From: Desulfurella acetivorans A63
GTDB taxonomy: Bacteria; Campylobacterota_A; Desulfurellia; Desulfurellales; Desulfurellaceae
Assembly: GCA_000517565.1 (NCBI GenBank)
Contig: CP007051.1
Coordinates: 124,001 to 188,000, forward strand
DNA: 64,000 nucleotides
Direction: 5' to 3'
A program made the translations under genes and the position numbers. The notes below the pieces were generated by a model, which saw only the letters and a list, made by a program, of their open reading frames with translations, made no database searches and had not been told where the DNA came from. Positions 47,884 to 53,609 of the stretch are shown one piece after another (position 1 is the first letter of the stretch; every line of letters starts with the position of its first letter).

Positions 47884-48210
47884 ATGAAAATACTGCTTGC
47901 GACAAAAGGTCAAACATTAGATAGCGCAATAGATGAGAGGTTTGCAAGAGCCAGCTATTTTTTGATTTACGATGACAAAACAGGTCAATTAGATGTAATA
48001 AACAATAATCAAGAGCTTTCGCACGGCGCAGGTCCCCAAGCGGTTCAGATCGCCATAGATAATGGTGCAAGTGCAATAATTTCTGCAATGCCCGGTCAAA
48101 ATGCCCTGCAAGCTATTAGGGCAGCAAATATTAAAATTTACGAGGCAGTTGGTTTAAGCGCAAAGCAGGCTATAGAAAAGTTAAAGTCAAATGAATTAAA
48201 AGAGTTATGA
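47884..48210 (+). CDS. NifX/NifB-like (dinitrogenase Fe-Mo cofactor family) protein
   Basis: 108 aa: KILLATKGQTLDSAIDERFARA, then SHGAGPQAVQIAIDNGASAII and GQNALQAIRAANIKIYEAVG, the NifX/NafY/VnfY fold that can carry metal-sulfur clusters. Small stand-alone members like this usually lie next to MinD-type ATPases with ferredoxin domains and are not tied to nitrogen fixation. AAGGAGGG precedes the ATG. The stop overlaps the next start. Confidence 0.9.
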   Translation: MKILLATKGQTLDSAIDERFARASYFLIYDDKTGQLDVINNNQELSHGAGPQAVQIAIDNGASAIISAMPGQNALQAIRAANIKIYEAVGLSAKQAIEKLKSNELKEL

Positions 48211-49052
48211 TAATAGCAATATTGTCAGGCAAAGGGGGCACGGGCAAAACCACCGTTTCAACAAACCTTGCTTATGTTTTAGACAAAAAAGGCCATAGCG
48301 TAAAACTCATAGATTTAGACGCAGAAGAGCCAAATGCGCATCTTTTTTTTGATATTGACTATAGTGAACATATAGATGTAGATGTAAAAATACCAAAAGT
48401 TGATAATGCAAAGTGCACTCACTGTGGTGATTGCGCAAAAGCGTGTCAGTTTAGCGCTATTGTTGTATCAAGCAAATCAGTGCTTGTGTTTGCACATTTG
48501 TGCCATGCGTGCGGTGCATGTTTACTTGCATGCAAGTATAATGCTTTGGAAGAAATACCAAAAAATATAGGAAAAATTTCTTTGGGTAGTGCAAATGGCA
48601 TTGATTTTGTAAAAAGCCAGATGAATATAGGAGAGCCATCTGCTGTTAGAATTATAAGACAGGCAAAAAAATATACAAATAAAGATAAAATCAACATTTT
48701 AGATTGTCCGCCAGGTGTATCTTGTCCTACAGTTGAATCAATACAGATGGCAGATTTTTGTGTACTTGTAACAGAACCTACACCATTTGGTTTGCATGAT
48801 TTAAAGCTTGCAGTGGATCTTACAAGACAATTTGGTTTAAAAATAGGTATTGTAATAAACAGATACGATAATAAATTTATTGAACTTGAGTCATATTTGG
48901 AAGAAAACAACATACCAATGCTGCTAAAGATACCCTACGATATAAAAATTGCTCAAAGTTACTCAAAAGGTAAGTTGTTTTCAAAAGAAATTCCTCAATA
49001 CGAGAATATGTTTGTTGAATTATACAATAAAATTTTGGAGATAGTGCAGTGA
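48207..49052 (+). CDS. MinD-superfamily ATPase with inserted ferredoxin domain (1)
   Basis: 281 aa. Deviant Walker A SGKGGTGKTTVSTNLA at the start, then two [4Fe-4S] motifs inserted after about 65 residues (CTHCGDCAKACQF and CHACGACLLACKY), then the rest of the ATPase fold (ILDCPPGVSCPTVES, VTEPTPFGLHDLKLAV). This family (Mrp/NubA-related) is thought to act in metal-cluster transfer; the exact target is unknown. It overlaps both neighbours by 4 nt and shares its fold with the next gene, evidently an old duplication. Confidence 0.9.
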   Translation: MIIAILSGKGGTGKTTVSTNLAYVLDKKGHSVKLIDLDAEEPNAHLFFDIDYSEHIDVDVKIPKVDNAKCTHCGDCAKACQFSAIVVSSKSVLVFAHLCHACGACLLACKYNALEEIPKNIGKISLGSANGIDFVKSQMNIGEPSAVRIIRQAKKYTNKDKINILDCPPGVSCPTVESIQMADFCVLVTEPTPFGLHDLKLAVDLTRQFGLKIGIVINRYDNKFIELESYLEENNIPMLLKIPYDIKIAQSYSKGKLFSKEIPQYENMFVELYNKILEIVQ

Positions 49053-49936
49053 TTGTAAAACAGCTTGCTATTGTAAGCGGAAAAGGTGGCACAGGCAAGA
49101 CAACACTTAGTGCTTCTTTTGCACATCTGGCAAAAAATGCTTTGATGGTGGATTGTGATGTAGATGCACCAAATCTACATATTATACTAAAGCCTGAAGT
49201 TAATAAAACATTTGAGTATTTTGGTTCTAAAAAGGCATTTATTGATTTTGATAAATGTATAAATTGTGGTATCTGCGCCTCAGTTTGTCGATTTGAAGCA
49301 ATAGATTTTGAGCAAAATCAATACAGGGTTAAAGAATATGCTTGCGAGGGCTGCAATGCATGCGTGATTGCCTGTCCAGTTAATGCTATAAGTTTGAAAA
49401 AAACTTTAAATGGCAAGTATTTTGAGTCTACCTGCGAGACAGGTTATATGGCACATGCGCTGTTGAACCCAGGTGAAGAAACCTCAGGTGGTTTAATATC
49501 TGAAGTAAGAAAGCTATCTTTAGAAATTGCCTACTCAAAAAAGATAGAATTAATTATTATTGATGGAGCTCCAGGTATTGGCTGTCCTGCTACATCATCA
49601 ATTGTGGGTGCAAAATCTGTAATAGTTGTAAGTGAGCCTACAAAAAGTGGTCTTCATGATCTGGTGCGCATTGTGGAAACAATAAAGCATTTTAAAATAC
49701 CACATGGAATTGTGATTAACAAGTTTGACATAAACGATGAGCAAACAAAAGAGATTGAAAAATACGCTCAAGAAGAAAATTTAGAAATAATTGGCAAAAT
49801 TCCTTTTGATAAAACTATTGTAGAAGCTACAAGAAAAGCAAAGCCAATTATTGAATATGATTGCAAAAGCGCATTTGCTGTAAAAGACATATTTGAAAAA
49901 ACAATCCAAAAGCTAAATTTATCGCCCCAAAGCTAA
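49049..49936 (+). CDS. MinD-superfamily ATPase with inserted ferredoxin domain (2)
   Basis: 295 aa paralogue of the preceding gene: SGKGGTGKTTLSASFA, CINCGICASVCRF and CEGCNACVIACPV, IDGAPGIGCPATSSIVGA and VSEPTKSGLHDLVRIVE. GTG start with GGAG about 9 nt upstream; overlaps the first copy by 4 nt. The two probably form a heterodimer, since they are always adjacent in such loci (recollection, not checked). A hairpin overlapping the stop ends the operon. Confidence 0.9.
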   Translation: MIVKQLAIVSGKGGTGKTTLSASFAHLAKNALMVDCDVDAPNLHIILKPEVNKTFEYFGSKKAFIDFDKCINCGICASVCRFEAIDFEQNQYRVKEYACEGCNACVIACPVNAISLKKTLNGKYFESTCETGYMAHALLNPGEETSGGLISEVRKLSLEIAYSKKIELIIIDGAPGIGCPATSSIVGAKSVIVVSEPTKSGLHDLVRIVETIKHFKIPHGIVINKFDINDEQTKEIEKYAQEENLEIIGKIPFDKTIVEATRKAKPIIEYDCKSAFAVKDIFEKTIQKLNLSPQS

Positions 49937-49963: not shown

Positions 49964-50575
49964 TTAGGAGAGGAGCTCTTCTACTGTTACGTAGTCGCCA
50001 ACGCGACCTGTCATTTTTTCTTCGTCTGTATTGACAGGCAAAGTTTTCTTACCAGGTCTCCAGTTGGCTGGGCAAACTTCGCCTGTCTTATATGAATGCT
50101 GATGGGCTTGGATTTGTCTTATGAACTCATTTACGTTTCTACCTACAGGTGGTGCTTGAACTTCTTCTGCTACTATTACACCATCTGGATTTATTAAAAA
50201 TCTGCCACGTAAAGCAATACCGGCACCTTCTATCATGACATTAAATTTTCTTGAAACCTCACCGGTTGGATCTGCGCCAATAGTTAATTTCAAGCCTTTT
50301 AGTAGTGGCTCTGTTTCTACAAAGCGTTTGTGTGAAAATTTTGTATCTGTTGAAATTGCAAGTATCTCGCAGCCAAGCTCGTTATGTAATACATCATATT
50401 TTGCATTCATTGCAGCAAGCTCAGTTGGGCAAACAAATGTAAAATCTGCTGGGTAGAAGCAAACAATTGTCCACTTACCTGCGTAATCTGCGCTTGAAAC
50501 CTTTTTGTAATGGCCACTTTGTGCATCGTATGCATCCATTTTAAACTCTGGTATTTTTTGAAGAACTAAACTCAT
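49964..50575 (-). CDS. Peroxiredoxin (AhpC/2-Cys type)
   Basis: 203 aa from the ATG at 50575 with GGAGGTGT upstream. The peroxidatic cysteine is in DFTFVCPTE, the resolving cysteine in GEVCPANWRPG, and the family Arg in GRFLINPDG. It reduces peroxides in the cytoplasm, using thioredoxin or a similar donor since no AhpF is nearby. It is divergent from a PerR-like regulator, which suggests peroxide-responsive control. Confidence 0.94.
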   Translation of the reverse strand: MSLVLQKIPEFKMDAYDAQSGHYKKVSSADYAGKWTIVCFYPADFTFVCPTELAAMNAKYDVLHNELGCEILAISTDTKFSHKRFVETEPLLKGLKLTIGADPTGEVSRKFNVMIEGAGIALRGRFLINPDGVIVAEEVQAPPVGRNVNEFIRQIQAHQHSYKTGEVCPANWRPGKKTLPVNTDEEKMTGRVGDYVTVEELLS

Positions 50576-50602
50576 CGTACACCTCCAAATCAATTTTAAT
50601 AA

Positions 50603-50630
50603 ATATTATCAAAAAATAAAAATTTGTCAA
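50603..50630 (-). promoter_or_regulatory. Promoter of the peroxiredoxin gene
   Basis: Minus-strand TTGACA (50625-50630) and TAATAT (50603-50608), 16-bp spacer, about 28 bp before the start codon. Confidence 0.7.
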
Positions 50631-50646
50631 GGAAAAAAATTATTAT

Positions 50647-50674
50647 TTGCAATTTTTTAAAAAAGTATTATATT
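50647..50674 (+). promoter_or_regulatory. Promoter of the PerR-like gene, suggesting a leaderless message
   Basis: TTGCAA (50647-50652) and TATATT (50669-50674), 16-bp spacer. The -10 ends 7 bp before the ATG at 50682, and no Shine-Dalgarno is present. Confidence 0.5.
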
Positions 50675-50681
50675 TGCTTTT

Positions 50682-51107
50682 ATGGAAGTAATTGATTATG
50701 CGTATTTAGAAAGTATACTAAACAAAAAAAATTTAAAAGTAACGCCACAAAGATTGCATATATTATCTCTTATCAAACAGTTTGGTCACATGGATATAGA
50801 TGAATTGTATTTACAGATTAAAAAAAACTACCCCTACATGTCACTTGCAACAATTTACAAAAATATTTCGGTAATGGTAGAAAATGGCATATTAAATGAG
50901 ATAAAAATTGCTCAGCAAAAAACAAAATATGAGTTATTGGCCGACTTTCATGCACATTTTATCTGCACAAACTGTAAAAAAATAGAAGATCTAGATATAG
51001 ATATAAGTTGTATTCTAAAAGGTTTTGATCAAGCAAGCGTGCAAAGCGTCCAATTGCAGATTTATGGTATTTGCAACGCCTGCCAGAAAAAAAAGAATTT
51101 AATCTAA
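50682..51107 (+). CDS. Fur-family regulator, PerR-like
   Basis: 141 aa. Winged helix (about 14-80: LKVTPQRLHILSLIKQFGHM, SLATIYKNISVMVENG), then the metal domain: FHAHFICTNCKKIEDLD with the first CxxC and the regulatory HxH, and C-terminal CNACQKK with the second CxxC for structural zinc. An Asp after the first CxxC (IEDL) and the divergent peroxiredoxin favour PerR over Fur. It probably represses the peroxiredoxin gene until peroxide oxidises its metal site. The C-terminus overlaps the convergent scaffold gene by 9 nt. Confidence 0.88.
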   Translation: MEVIDYAYLESILNKKNLKVTPQRLHILSLIKQFGHMDIDELYLQIKKNYPYMSLATIYKNISVMVENGILNEIKIAQQKTKYELLADFHAHFICTNCKKIEDLDIDISCILKGFDQASVQSVQLQIYGICNACQKKKNLI

Positions 51108-51737
51108 AAAAACTACATCAATGGATTTTACATCCCATCTGTACTCAAATTTCTCGACAATTTCTTCTTTTATTGCATTTGCAAATTGATTTGTATCTTT
51201 AAGATTTAAATATATCGTAAGCTTGCCATCTACAAAATCTATTTTTGAAAGTAGTTTTGATCCTACCAAGTCTCTGCCTGTATTTGGGTCTATTACGCCC
51301 CTTAGGCGTTCTTTTATCAATGCTTCATCAGTTGGCTTATCTTTGGGTACAAGGCCGTTTTTTTCTTCATAGTTTTCAATTGCTCGCTTAAGAGACTGTA
51401 TGGCTAAAATAGAACAGTGTACTTTAACAGCTGGCAAACCTCCAAGTTCATCTACTACTTGAGAATATTTTAAGTTTTTTGCTTCTTCAATTGTTTTGCC
51501 TTTCGCAATTTCAGTAATAATAGATGCTGTTGCAATGTTTGAAGCGCATCCGAAAGATTTAAATTTTATATCTTCAATAACATGCGTATCTTTATTTACT
51601 TTTAATTGTAACTGAACCATATCACCGCAAGCGGGAGAACCTTCTGTTGCTTGAGCATCAGGGTTTTCGATTTCACCTAAGTTTTTTGGATTTAAAAATA
51701 AATCCATAACTTTTTTTGAGTATGGTATACTTGGCAT
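51099..51737 (-). CDS. IscU scaffold fused to a MIP18-like (DUF59) domain
   Basis: 212 aa. Residues 1-120 are IscU: SPACGD (Cys37), KSFGCASNIATAS (Cys64) and VKVHCSILA (Cys108), with Asp39, so all cluster ligands are kept. Residues 130-212 (RGVIDPNTGRDLVGSKLLSK, GKLTIYLNL) resemble the MIP18/SufT-type Fe-S assembly domain. The fusion joins cluster building to a transfer-type domain. It follows the NifS-like gene directly (stop and start adjacent) and is the third gene of the operon. Confidence 0.87.
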   Translation of the reverse strand: MPSIPYSKKVMDLFLNPKNLGEIENPDAQATEGSPACGDMVQLQLKVNKDTHVIEDIKFKSFGCASNIATASIITEIAKGKTIEEAKNLKYSQVVDELGGLPAVKVHCSILAIQSLKRAIENYEEKNGLVPKDKPTDEALIKERLRGVIDPNTGRDLVGSKLLSKIDFVDGKLTIYLNLKDTNQFANAIKEEIVEKFEYRWDVKSIDVVFLD

Positions 51738-52886
51738 TTAATCCTCCTTGTATAGTGGGCTTAAATTTCTTAAAAAAGCTACATCTTCTTTTAAATACTC
51801 TATTGTCTGGTCTATTTCTTTTAATGTGTTAAATTTACCAAACGAAAATCTAATAGAACCATGAGCCAACTCGTGCGTCAAACCGCATGCAAGAAGCACA
51901 TGTGAGGCTTCAAGTGATTTGGAAAAACAAGCACTACCCGTTATCACACTTACGCCCCTTAAGTTTAGCCTTAAAGTCAAAGATTCACCTTCAATAAACA
52001 AAAAAGTTACATTTACTATACCTGGATGAGACATTTTGGGACTATTTATTCTAATGTGCGGTATTTGGTTTATTTTTTCTAGAAAGTAATCTTTTAAGTT
52101 TTTAATATAGTCGTATATTTTTTTGTCAAATATCTCTATAGCTTTTTGCATGCCAACAATTGCAGGTATATTTTGAGTGCCAGCTCTTAAGTTATATTCC
52201 TGATAACCACCAGTAATAAGTGGTTCAAGCTCAATAGAGTTTTTTGCAATTAAAGCTGATGCTCCTTTTGGGCCATAGTATGTATCTGAACCTATAGTTA
52301 AAAGATCAATATTGTATTTTGATAGATCAATATCAAAAAAAGGAAAAGAAAAAGTTGCATCACAGTGATACGCACAATTTTTCTGCTTACAAATTTCACC
52401 AATGCTGATTATATCCTGAAGTGTACCTATTTCTTGATTTACATGTTGAATGCTGACTAAGATTGTATTATCATCAATTAGATTATTTAATTCATTAAGA
52501 TTAACCAATCCTTCGTTGTTGACGCCTATATACCTTATCTCAAAGCCTTTTTTTTGCAAAAACCTACATGTATTTATGATTGATAAATCTTCAATTTTGC
52601 TAATTACGATATTGCCCTTTTTTTTACTAAAAGCTATTCCTTTTAGTGCTAGATTATTTGATTCTGTAGGATTGGATGTAAAAATACACCTATAATCTTT
52701 AGCGTTTAGTTTATCCAATATAAATGCTCTTGCACTCTCAAGTGCTTCTTGGGCAATCAAACCATCTTCATGACTAAATATTGATGATGCTATGGCATAG
52801 TTTTGTGTAAAAAAAGGTATCATTGCTTTTAAGACTTCATCATCTACTTTAGTTGTTGCTGCATTATCAAAGTAAATTCTGTTCAT
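51738..52886 (-). CDS. NifS/IscS homologue lacking the PLP-binding lysine
   Basis: 382 aa, collinear with cysteine desulfurases (YFDNAATTKVD, TESNNLALKG, HVNQEIGTLQDI, GSACFSKSLEASHVL, GSIRFSFGKFNT). The SGHKxYGPKG motif is here GSDTYYGPKG: Thr202 replaces the Schiff-base Lys and Asp201 the His. The PLP-stacking His is Asp100 (KIEDLS for xxEHxA), and the Gln of DATQS is Phe179. The persulfide-type Cys320 remains, as does Arg234. Ordinary desulfurase chemistry looks impossible; a sulfur-carrier or binding role is inferred. The frame is intact and starts 4 nt inside the preceding gene. Confidence 0.88.
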   Translation of the reverse strand: MNRIYFDNAATTKVDDEVLKAMIPFFTQNYAIASSIFSHEDGLIAQEALESARAFILDKLNAKDYRCIFTSNPTESNNLALKGIAFSKKKGNIVISKIEDLSIINTCRFLQKKGFEIRYIGVNNEGLVNLNELNNLIDDNTILVSIQHVNQEIGTLQDIISIGEICKQKNCAYHCDATFSFPFFDIDLSKYNIDLLTIGSDTYYGPKGASALIAKNSIELEPLITGGYQEYNLRAGTQNIPAIVGMQKAIEIFDKKIYDYIKNLKDYFLEKINQIPHIRINSPKMSHPGIVNVTFLFIEGESLTLRLNLRGVSVITGSACFSKSLEASHVLLACGLTHELAHGSIRFSFGKFNTLKEIDQTIEYLKEDVAFLRNLSPLYKED

Positions 52887-53239
52887 TTTTCCCCCTTGCT
52901 ATTAATTAGAGCTTCTTTAAAAGCTTCAATTGCACTATTTGCGCACTCAAGGCGTTCTTTTGGAATACCTACTAAATTAGAATTTAAAAAGTTTTCATCT
53001 ATGCTTAAGGCATTTTCTATTGTCTTATTTTTAAATGTTTTGGCTAGAAAACTTGCAACTGCAATAGCAACAGGACAGGCTTTTACTTTATAATCGATAG
53101 CTACAATTATACCTTGTTTAGTTTTAACATAAAATATGATCTTTGCGTTGAATTCAATATTTTCTCTAACGCCTATGCCATCTGGATCAAGTACAGTATC
53201 TTTAATAGGGTAAAAAAAATGGCTTTCAAAGCTTTCCAT
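52883..53239 (-). CDS. Diverged IscU/NifU-like protein
   Basis: 118 aa that follows the IscU pattern: an N-terminal strand region, then DYKVKACPVAIAVASFLAKT (Cys55) with KTIENAL, and ERLECANSAIEAFKEAL (Cys99), aligning with the second and third IscU cysteines. The first Cys and the CGD motif are absent, so a normal [2Fe-2S] site cannot form in one subunit. It is first in the three-gene operon, behind its own promoter, with GGAGG before the ATG. Assignment is by pattern and context. Confidence 0.72.
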   Translation of the reverse strand: MESFESHFFYPIKDTVLDPDGIGVRENIEFNAKIIFYVKTKQGIIVAIDYKVKACPVAIAVASFLAKTFKNKTIENALSIDENFLNSNLVGIPKERLECANSAIEAFKEALINSKGEK

Positions 53240-53257
53240 ACAACCTCCTATTTAGAT

Positions 53258-53285
53258 ACTATAATACTAACTTTTAAAAAGTCAA
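53258..53285 (-). promoter_or_regulatory. Promoter of the IscU-like/NifS-like/IscU-MIP18 operon
   Basis: Minus-strand TTGACT (53280-53285) and TATAGT (53258-53263), 16-bp spacer. A second TTGACA lies about 22 bp further upstream. Confidence 0.65.
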
Positions 53286-53314
53286 TATATCTTGATAAGT
53301 TTTGTCAAGTTAAG

Positions 53315-53344
53315 CTAAAGCGCCTACTTATTTAGGCGCTTTAG
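53315..53344 (-). terminator. Hairpin at the secG stop codon
   Basis: Perfect 12-bp stem (CTAAAGCGCCTA / TAGGCGCTTTAG) with a 6-nt loop. It contains the secG stop and ends the glycolytic operon. The T-run is weak. Confidence 0.55.
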
Positions 53345-53609
53345 TGGTATTTGTAAATATAGTTGATTGGGTTTGATTTTTGTAGACATAATACGAGATA
53401 GCAACAGAATTAATCATAAACAAAAAGGCTAAAACCCATGTGATTTTGGCAAAAAACGACATTGCGCCTGTTGCTCCAAAAAGTGTATCAGAAGCTCCAG
53501 CGCCAAAGGATACGCCCATATTTGCACCTTTTCCTTTTTGAAGCAAAATAAGAACAATTAATAAAATAGACATTATACCCTGCAGTATCATAAGGACAGT
53601 AAGCATCAA
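53328..53609 (-). CDS. secG: Preprotein translocase subunit SecG
   Basis: 93 aa with two membrane helices. The loop LLQKGKGANMGVSFGAGASD and the segment LFGATGAMSFFAKITWVLAF are diagnostic of SecG, the small stimulating subunit of SecYEG. Overlaps the tpiA stop by 4 nt; tpiA-secG adjacency is common in bacteria. Confidence 0.95.
   Translation of the reverse strand: MMLTVLMILQGIMSILLIVLILLQKGKGANMGVSFGAGASDTLFGATGAMSFFAKITWVLAFLFMINSVAISYYVYKNQTQSTIFTNTTKAPK

Follow-up and report, generated by a model that had tools for sequence, protein, structure and literature searches.

A lysine-less IscS homologue between two IscU-like proteins in Desulfurella acetivorans: a candidate PLP-independent partner of IscU

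Sulfur is usually taken to enter Fe-S clusters through cysteine desulfurase. An IscS/NifS homologue that lacks the PLP lysine and is nevertheless encoded between two IscU-like proteins is found in a 64,000-nucleotide stretch (hereafter the window) of the genome of D. acetivorans A63. The question addressed here is whether this protein is a defective desulfurase, an enzyme of another kind, or a partner of IscU that works without PLP.

The three genes are tightly coupled, all on the minus strand, and run from 53239 to 51099 of the window. The first (52883–53239, minus strand) encodes a 118-aa IscU-like, ligand-poor protein (NifU_N, 47.8 bits), the second (51738–52886, minus strand) the 382-aa IscS/NifS homologue, called P0001 in the following (Aminotran_5, 233 bits), and the third (51099–51737, minus strand) a 212-aa fusion of IscU with a MIP18/SufT-like PF01883 domain (IscU::PF01883; NifU_N, 153 bits; FeS_assembly_P, 32.6 bits). 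Genes 1 and 2 overlap by 4 bp, and genes 2 and 3 abut with a gap of 0 bp; the location and coupling of the three ORFs are those given in the original prediction. Just upstream of the trio lies a candidate promoter (TTGACT-N16-TATAGT, 53258–53285, minus strand) that matches the consensus at 10 of 12 positions, a match that does not by itself indicate function, with an AGGAGG (53244–53249, minus strand) between it and the first gene; a hairpin with a 13-bp stem (53314–53345, no strand assigned), detected by a terminator-like scan, separates secG from the trio.

At the other end, the stretch 49964–51107 contains an AhpC-type peroxiredoxin and the gene of a Fur-family regulator, which reaches 9 bp into the convergent IscU::PF01883 gene; the region may be under redox or metal control. 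Farther away, at 47884–49936 on the plus strand, a NifX-like protein (PF02579) precedes two ATPases of the MinD/NBP35 type that carry inserted ferredoxin domains, a region that is syntenic in three Desulfurella genomes. In the D. amilsii genome paper, a dinitrogenase FeMo-co protein and NifU were considered as possible nitrogen-fixation genes (PMC5317093); because of the trio, this reading looks doubtful as far as NifU is concerned.

Alignment of P0001 to E. coli IscS (chain numbering of 1p3w) showed that Lys206 is replaced by Thr202 (codon ACA, 52281–52283), His205 by Asp201 (52284–52286), the PLP-stacking His104 by Asp100 (52587–52589) and Gln183 of the DATQS motif by Phe179 (52350–52352), all on the minus strand, so that the motif at the lysine site reads SDTYYGPKG. 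These four replacements had been correctly predicted, as had the retention of Cys320 (Cys328 in IscS; codon 51927–51929, minus strand) and of Arg234 (Arg240). Cys320 lies in the mobile persulfide loop GSACFS and is invariant across all the sequences aligned. Also retained are Asp176 (Asp180) and the substrate arginine Arg346 (Arg354). Two further changes are Ser203 to Gly199 and Asn155 to Gln151, the latter missing from the original prediction and common to the whole clade described below.

The Aminotran_5, NifS and IscS models cover P0001 end to end, with 370 bits for NifS and 353 bits for IscS, below the respective curated equivalog cut-offs of 530.75 and 643.2 bits. The AlphaFold2 model (pLDDT 93.7) predicts an intact fold, the only segment of low confidence being residues 319–322 in the Cys loop, as expected for a flexible loop, and its best match among solved structures is the IscS of Archaeoglobus fulgidus in complex with IscU (4eb5, TM 0.94). 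P0001 is therefore like canonical IscS/NifS in its full-length class V aminotransferase fold, its length, its loop Cys and its C-terminal SPLY docking segment, and unlike them in its missing PLP lysine, stacking His and Gln183, in the change of Asn155 and in its scores. Since Lys206 and the stacking His are lost, P0001 is not expected to bind PLP as an internal aldimine.

The trio and its surroundings are syntenic across three genomes of Desulfurella, and the two congeners (98% and 85% identity) carry exactly the same pocket substitutions, which are hence not a sequencing error. For the IscS homologue, dN/dS was 0.07 and 0.04; the IscU::PF01883 gene had 0.03 and the gene of the 118-aa protein 0.12–0.15, values near those spanned by the neighbouring genes (0.02–0.16). 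The trio is under purifying selection in the three genomes, and the view that the lysine-less gene is not decaying is borne out. A lysine in close relatives with the same operon, which had been set against the prediction, was not found in the congeners, where Thr202 is identical; however, two proteins from the same class as Desulfurella (L045 and L046) keep the lysine beside an IscU::PF01883 gene, so that this objection half applies.

As for the two scaffolds, the 118-aa protein keeps Cys55 and Cys99, corresponding to Cys63 and Cys106 of IscU, while the equivalents of IscU Cys37 and Asp39 are replaced. Its AlphaFold2 model (pLDDT 94.5) has the IscU fold (TM 0.87–0.89 to solved IscU), so that the fold is present and the ligand set of three Cys and one Asp is not. 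In the 212-aa protein, the NifU_N part has all three Cys, the Asp and the LPAVK motif, and is followed by PF01883. Both proteins are thus what they had been taken for, a diverged IscU-like protein with two of the three ligand cysteines and a complete IscU fused to a MIP18-like domain. The 118-aa gene occurs in Desulfurella only, among the loci examined. Every clade locus examined has an IscU::PF01883 partner of equal size and type (by domain scan at two of them).

A protein search of the complete D. acetivorans genome with P0001 as a query found only P0001 itself, and a scan of the same genome with PF00266 revealed no second NifS-type desulfurase. The other PF00266 matches were one AGXT-type aminotransferase and distant proteins of the HisC, KBL/BioF and ArgD types, assigned by eye from their sequences, and a second desulfurase elsewhere in the genome was rejected on this ground. 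The genome also encodes an MnmA-like protein and an SmsC with a C-terminal CxxC, adjoining SmsB; the SMS system (SmsCB) of M. jannaschii was shown to be able to use sulfide (PMC12192291). NifS-type and NifU_N proteins are both missing from several near-complete genomes of the sister family, and for this reason a desulfurase looks dispensable in this sulfide-producing order; other sister-family genomes have an ordinary Lys-bearing NifS–NifU pair. In one genome of that family, NifS is split into two overlapping frames (L044, 5854–7028), by a frameshift or an assembly error.

When contigs were scanned with the P0001 alignment, the four nearest matches were two Methanosarcinaceae and two Dehalococcoidia proteins, and all four had Thr at the lysine site and IscU::PF01883 downstream. 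In whole-genome searches, close homologues turned up in many genomes of the same class as the Methanosarcinaceae and in 6 of 245 Dehalococcoidia genomes. The resulting clade comprises 38 examined sequences (Methanosarcinia, Dehalococcoidia and Desulfurellia), all paired with IscU::PF01883, and the lysine is absent in 36 of them. Asp100, Gln151, His179, His201, Thr202 and Cys320 are present in all 33 archaeal and Chloroflexota members; the invariance of the replaced positions indicates that the old PLP pocket is selected for something else, and it may bind a new ligand, e.g. a metal or polysulfide. The original prediction raised the question whether Thr202/Asp100 and the flanking genes are conserved in relatives; the residue pair and IscU::PF01883 are, but the 118-aa gene, among the loci examined, is not. 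The four genomes of methanogens and Dehalococcoidia that were searched for it also encode an ordinary Lys-bearing IscS, which Desulfurella does not.

The two clade members that keep both the His and the Lys are L045 (6228–7409) and L046 (5539–6708), which have Asn155 changed to Gln and Gln183 to Leu and stand beside TusA–DsrE2. They have Gln at position 151, no Gln183 and an IscU::PF01883 partner in common with the rest of the clade and are possible intermediates, either still active as desulfurases or not.

A single clade including L045 and L046 received 99 SH-aLRT and, with the pocket columns removed, 100/97 as a clade of 30 rows to which P0001 belongs. P0001, with Asp100, Thr202, Gln151 and an adjacent IscU::PF01883, is accordingly placed by alignment and tree in this Thr-IscS clade (MA0808-like), apart from A. 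fulgidus IscS. With all columns, a single origin of Asp100/Thr202 received weak support (88/59). When the pocket columns were left out, Desulfurella grouped with the Lys-bearing pair as its sister (98/86), so that Asp100/Thr202 would be convergent in Desulfurella and in the archaeal and Chloroflexota group, with His to Asp and Lys to Thr perhaps acquired in parallel, although the single-origin tree was not rejected (p-AU 0.10). A third group of lysine-less IscS was observed in unrelated bacteria (L049, 5536–6726; L115, 2159–3328; L116, 3941–5182), with Thr, Gln or Arg at the lysine site.

The neighbours of these genes bear on the source of the sulfur. Genes for TusA and DsrE2 adjoin 32 of the 35 clade members outside Desulfurella, and the order TusA–DsrE2–IscS–IscU::PF01883 is found at 30 of the 33 archaeal and Chloroflexota loci. 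Both Lys-bearing sister loci have the order IscS–IscU::PF01883–TusA–DsrE2 with overlapping ends, and the relay is therefore not strictly tied to the loss of the lysine. Among the Asp-type lysine-less loci of the A. fulgidus kind, TusA is present at three of three and a DsrE-like gene at two of three; in the third lysine-less group, TusA is near two of three and DsrE2 near one. In contrast, neither gene was found within 2 kb of any of 96 Lys-bearing homologues scanned in the same way. The association gave a Fisher p of 3e-26, in which related genomes are counted that are not independent evidence; only four independent changes are present, a number at which a sign test cannot reach significance. 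Because of these few independent origins, the association should be read as a strong pattern and not as statistical proof.

In Desulfurella this part is missing. None of the three genomes has TusA or DsrE2 next to the trio, and the possibility that they are encoded elsewhere in these genomes was rejected, no TusA and only distant DsrE2 paralogues, none of the operon type, being found; a relay arm in Desulfurella would for this reason be hypothetical. At two other loci, with TusA and DsrE-like genes upstream, an Asp-type IscS stands beside an IscU domain within a 445–474-aa protein (L253, 2635–5158; L254, 720–3249), and at L254 an ordinary IscS–IscU pair lies a few kb away.

Because IscS proteins without the lysine have been reported in A. 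fulgidus and M. acetivorans, P0001 is not a new kind of protein. PMC7585200, with reference to Marinoni 2012 and Pagnier 2014/15, states that the IscS of A. fulgidus, where Asp takes the place of the lysine, shows no desulfurase activity and that a ligand of the [2Fe-2S] cluster on IscU is provided by its Cys. P0001 is like this protein (4eb5, 4hvk, 4r5f) in its fold, in the replacement of Lys and His205, in its loop Cys and in its IscU partner. It differs in having Thr for Lys and in lacking the NDxYGPKG motif; moreover, A. fulgidus IscS keeps the stacking His104, has a scaffold (4eb5_C, 153 aa) without the PF01883 fusion, and falls with L103, L253 and L254 in a separate clade (99).

IscS1 of M. 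acetivorans (MA0808) lacks the Lys and the PLP-binding residues and has an STGSACFS loop, and IscU1 (MA0807) is of 24.2 kDa (PMC7585200), which matches the size of IscU::PF01883. Judged from these reported features, MA0808 most likely belongs to the subfamily of P0001, and the Methanosarcinia members of the clade have Asp100/Thr202, as in Desulfurella. Unlike the M. acetivorans system, Desulfurella lacks the adjacent TusA–DsrE2, His201 and His179, and has the extra 118-aa gene and no second canonical IscS. Of the two ancestral Fe-S systems MIS (minimal ISC) and SMS (PMC12192291), the trio is like MIS in having a minimal IscS plus IscU and no carriers, and SmsCB is encoded in this genome too, but the definition of MIS includes a functional desulfurase. 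What appears to be new is the clade with IscU::PF01883, the link to TusA–DsrE2 and the Desulfurella case. In the open literature, we found no paper on any of the TusA–DsrE2 link, the Thr-IscS clade and the Desulfurella case, nor one naming TusA, DsrE, IscS, IscU and Methanosarcina together.

We therefore favour, with a probability of roughly 0.6, the reading that the trio represents a branch of the minimal ISC machinery that does without cysteine and in which P0001, unable to form a PLP Schiff base and not a cysteine desulfurase, would act as a PLP-independent partner of IscU. The inactivity of A. fulgidus IscS and the retention of the loop Cys and SPLY in P0001 point in this direction. P0001 would keep the IscS fold and dock IscU::PF01883, as the model and the homology to 4EB5 suggest; Cys320 would swing into the IscU site and would there either hand over sulfane sulfur or temporarily ligate the nascent [2Fe-2S] cluster, the sulfur presumably coming from the sulfide/polysulfide pool and not from cysteine. 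In the relatives, TusA and DsrE2 of the same operon would probably deliver this sulfur. Sulfur passes from IscS to TusA in E. coli, and the opposite direction is thus an assumption. In Desulfurella, where the TusA/DsrE2 part appears to have been lost, the 118-aa protein may stand in as a small sulfur carrier, because two Cys are kept and the rest of its cluster site is gone.

The original prediction of a non-PLP relay or a scaffold complex instead of classical ISC thus belongs to the best-supported family of explanations, given that no other desulfurase was found, that the replacements are invariant and that TusA–DsrE2 accompany the relatives, even if the kind of protein was already known. A more ambitious reading of the same gene contexts, which we hold only tentatively and would rather bet against, is that lysine-less IscS is a recurring cysteine-independent sulfur hub, with the lysine lost in at least three lineages: TusA and DsrE2 would deliver sulfane sulfur to the loop Cys, the PLP-free IscS would pass it on to the fused IscU::PF01883, and Desulfurella, with this IscS only, would use the two-Cys carrier in place of TusA/DsrE2.

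The alternative that survives best, though it appears unlikely, is that Cys320 only caps the cluster on IscU and never carries sulfur, sulfide entering directly. Such a role was proposed for A. fulgidus IscS, the nearest solved structure (PMC7585200), and would agree with the lack of TusA in Desulfurella. A mere cap, however, would have no need of TusA, and often DsrE2, beside lysine-less iscS genes in the relatives, including the Asp-type ones; these neighbours favour a relay through Cys320, while their absence from Desulfurella favours either direct entry of sulfide or the 118-aa protein as carrier.

Less likely still is a sulfurtransferase hub for tRNA thiolation or molybdopterin, with SmsCB making the clusters. 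E. coli TusA serves tRNA thiolation, and the genome encodes SmsCB as well as an MnmA-like protein, but a hub of this type would not account for the constant pairing with a complete IscU::PF01883. We give little credit to a PLP- or PMP-dependent enzyme that dispenses with the lysine and acts on another substrate. PMP enzymes with His in place of Lys exist (ColD, E1), and P0001 keeps Asp176, which would face the pyridine N, the Thr70–Thr74 region and Arg346; yet replacements also affect the stacking His and the Gln, as well as Asn155 and the His/Ser on the phosphate side, and A. fulgidus IscS, with fewer changes in its pocket, is described in PMC7585200 as devoid of desulfurase activity. A decaying relic or a sequencing error, although several Hippea-like relatives have dispensed with the ISC genes entirely, can be rejected almost with certainty in view of the identity between congeners, the dN/dS values, the fold predicted to be intact and the same residues in distant members of the clade.

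The reading of P0001 as a PLP-independent partner of IscU would have consequences beyond this locus. Many genes of Methanosarcinia, and some of Dehalococcoidia, are probably misannotated as "cysteine desulfurase". In addition, TusA and DsrE2 of the relatives are concrete candidates for the sulfur donor, which makes the role of lysine-less IscS proteins such as that of A. fulgidus directly testable. D. acetivorans is a culturable sulfur reducer whose sole IscS keeps everything but the PLP chemistry, with no other desulfurase found in its genome; that the only desulfurase-like protein of Desulfurella lacks the lysine, and that its relatives in methanogenic archaea and Chloroflexota have undergone the same loss next to sulfur-carrier genes, suggests that Fe-S clusters may be built here without sulfur from cysteine, and this bears on how such clusters are made in sulfide-rich anoxic settings.
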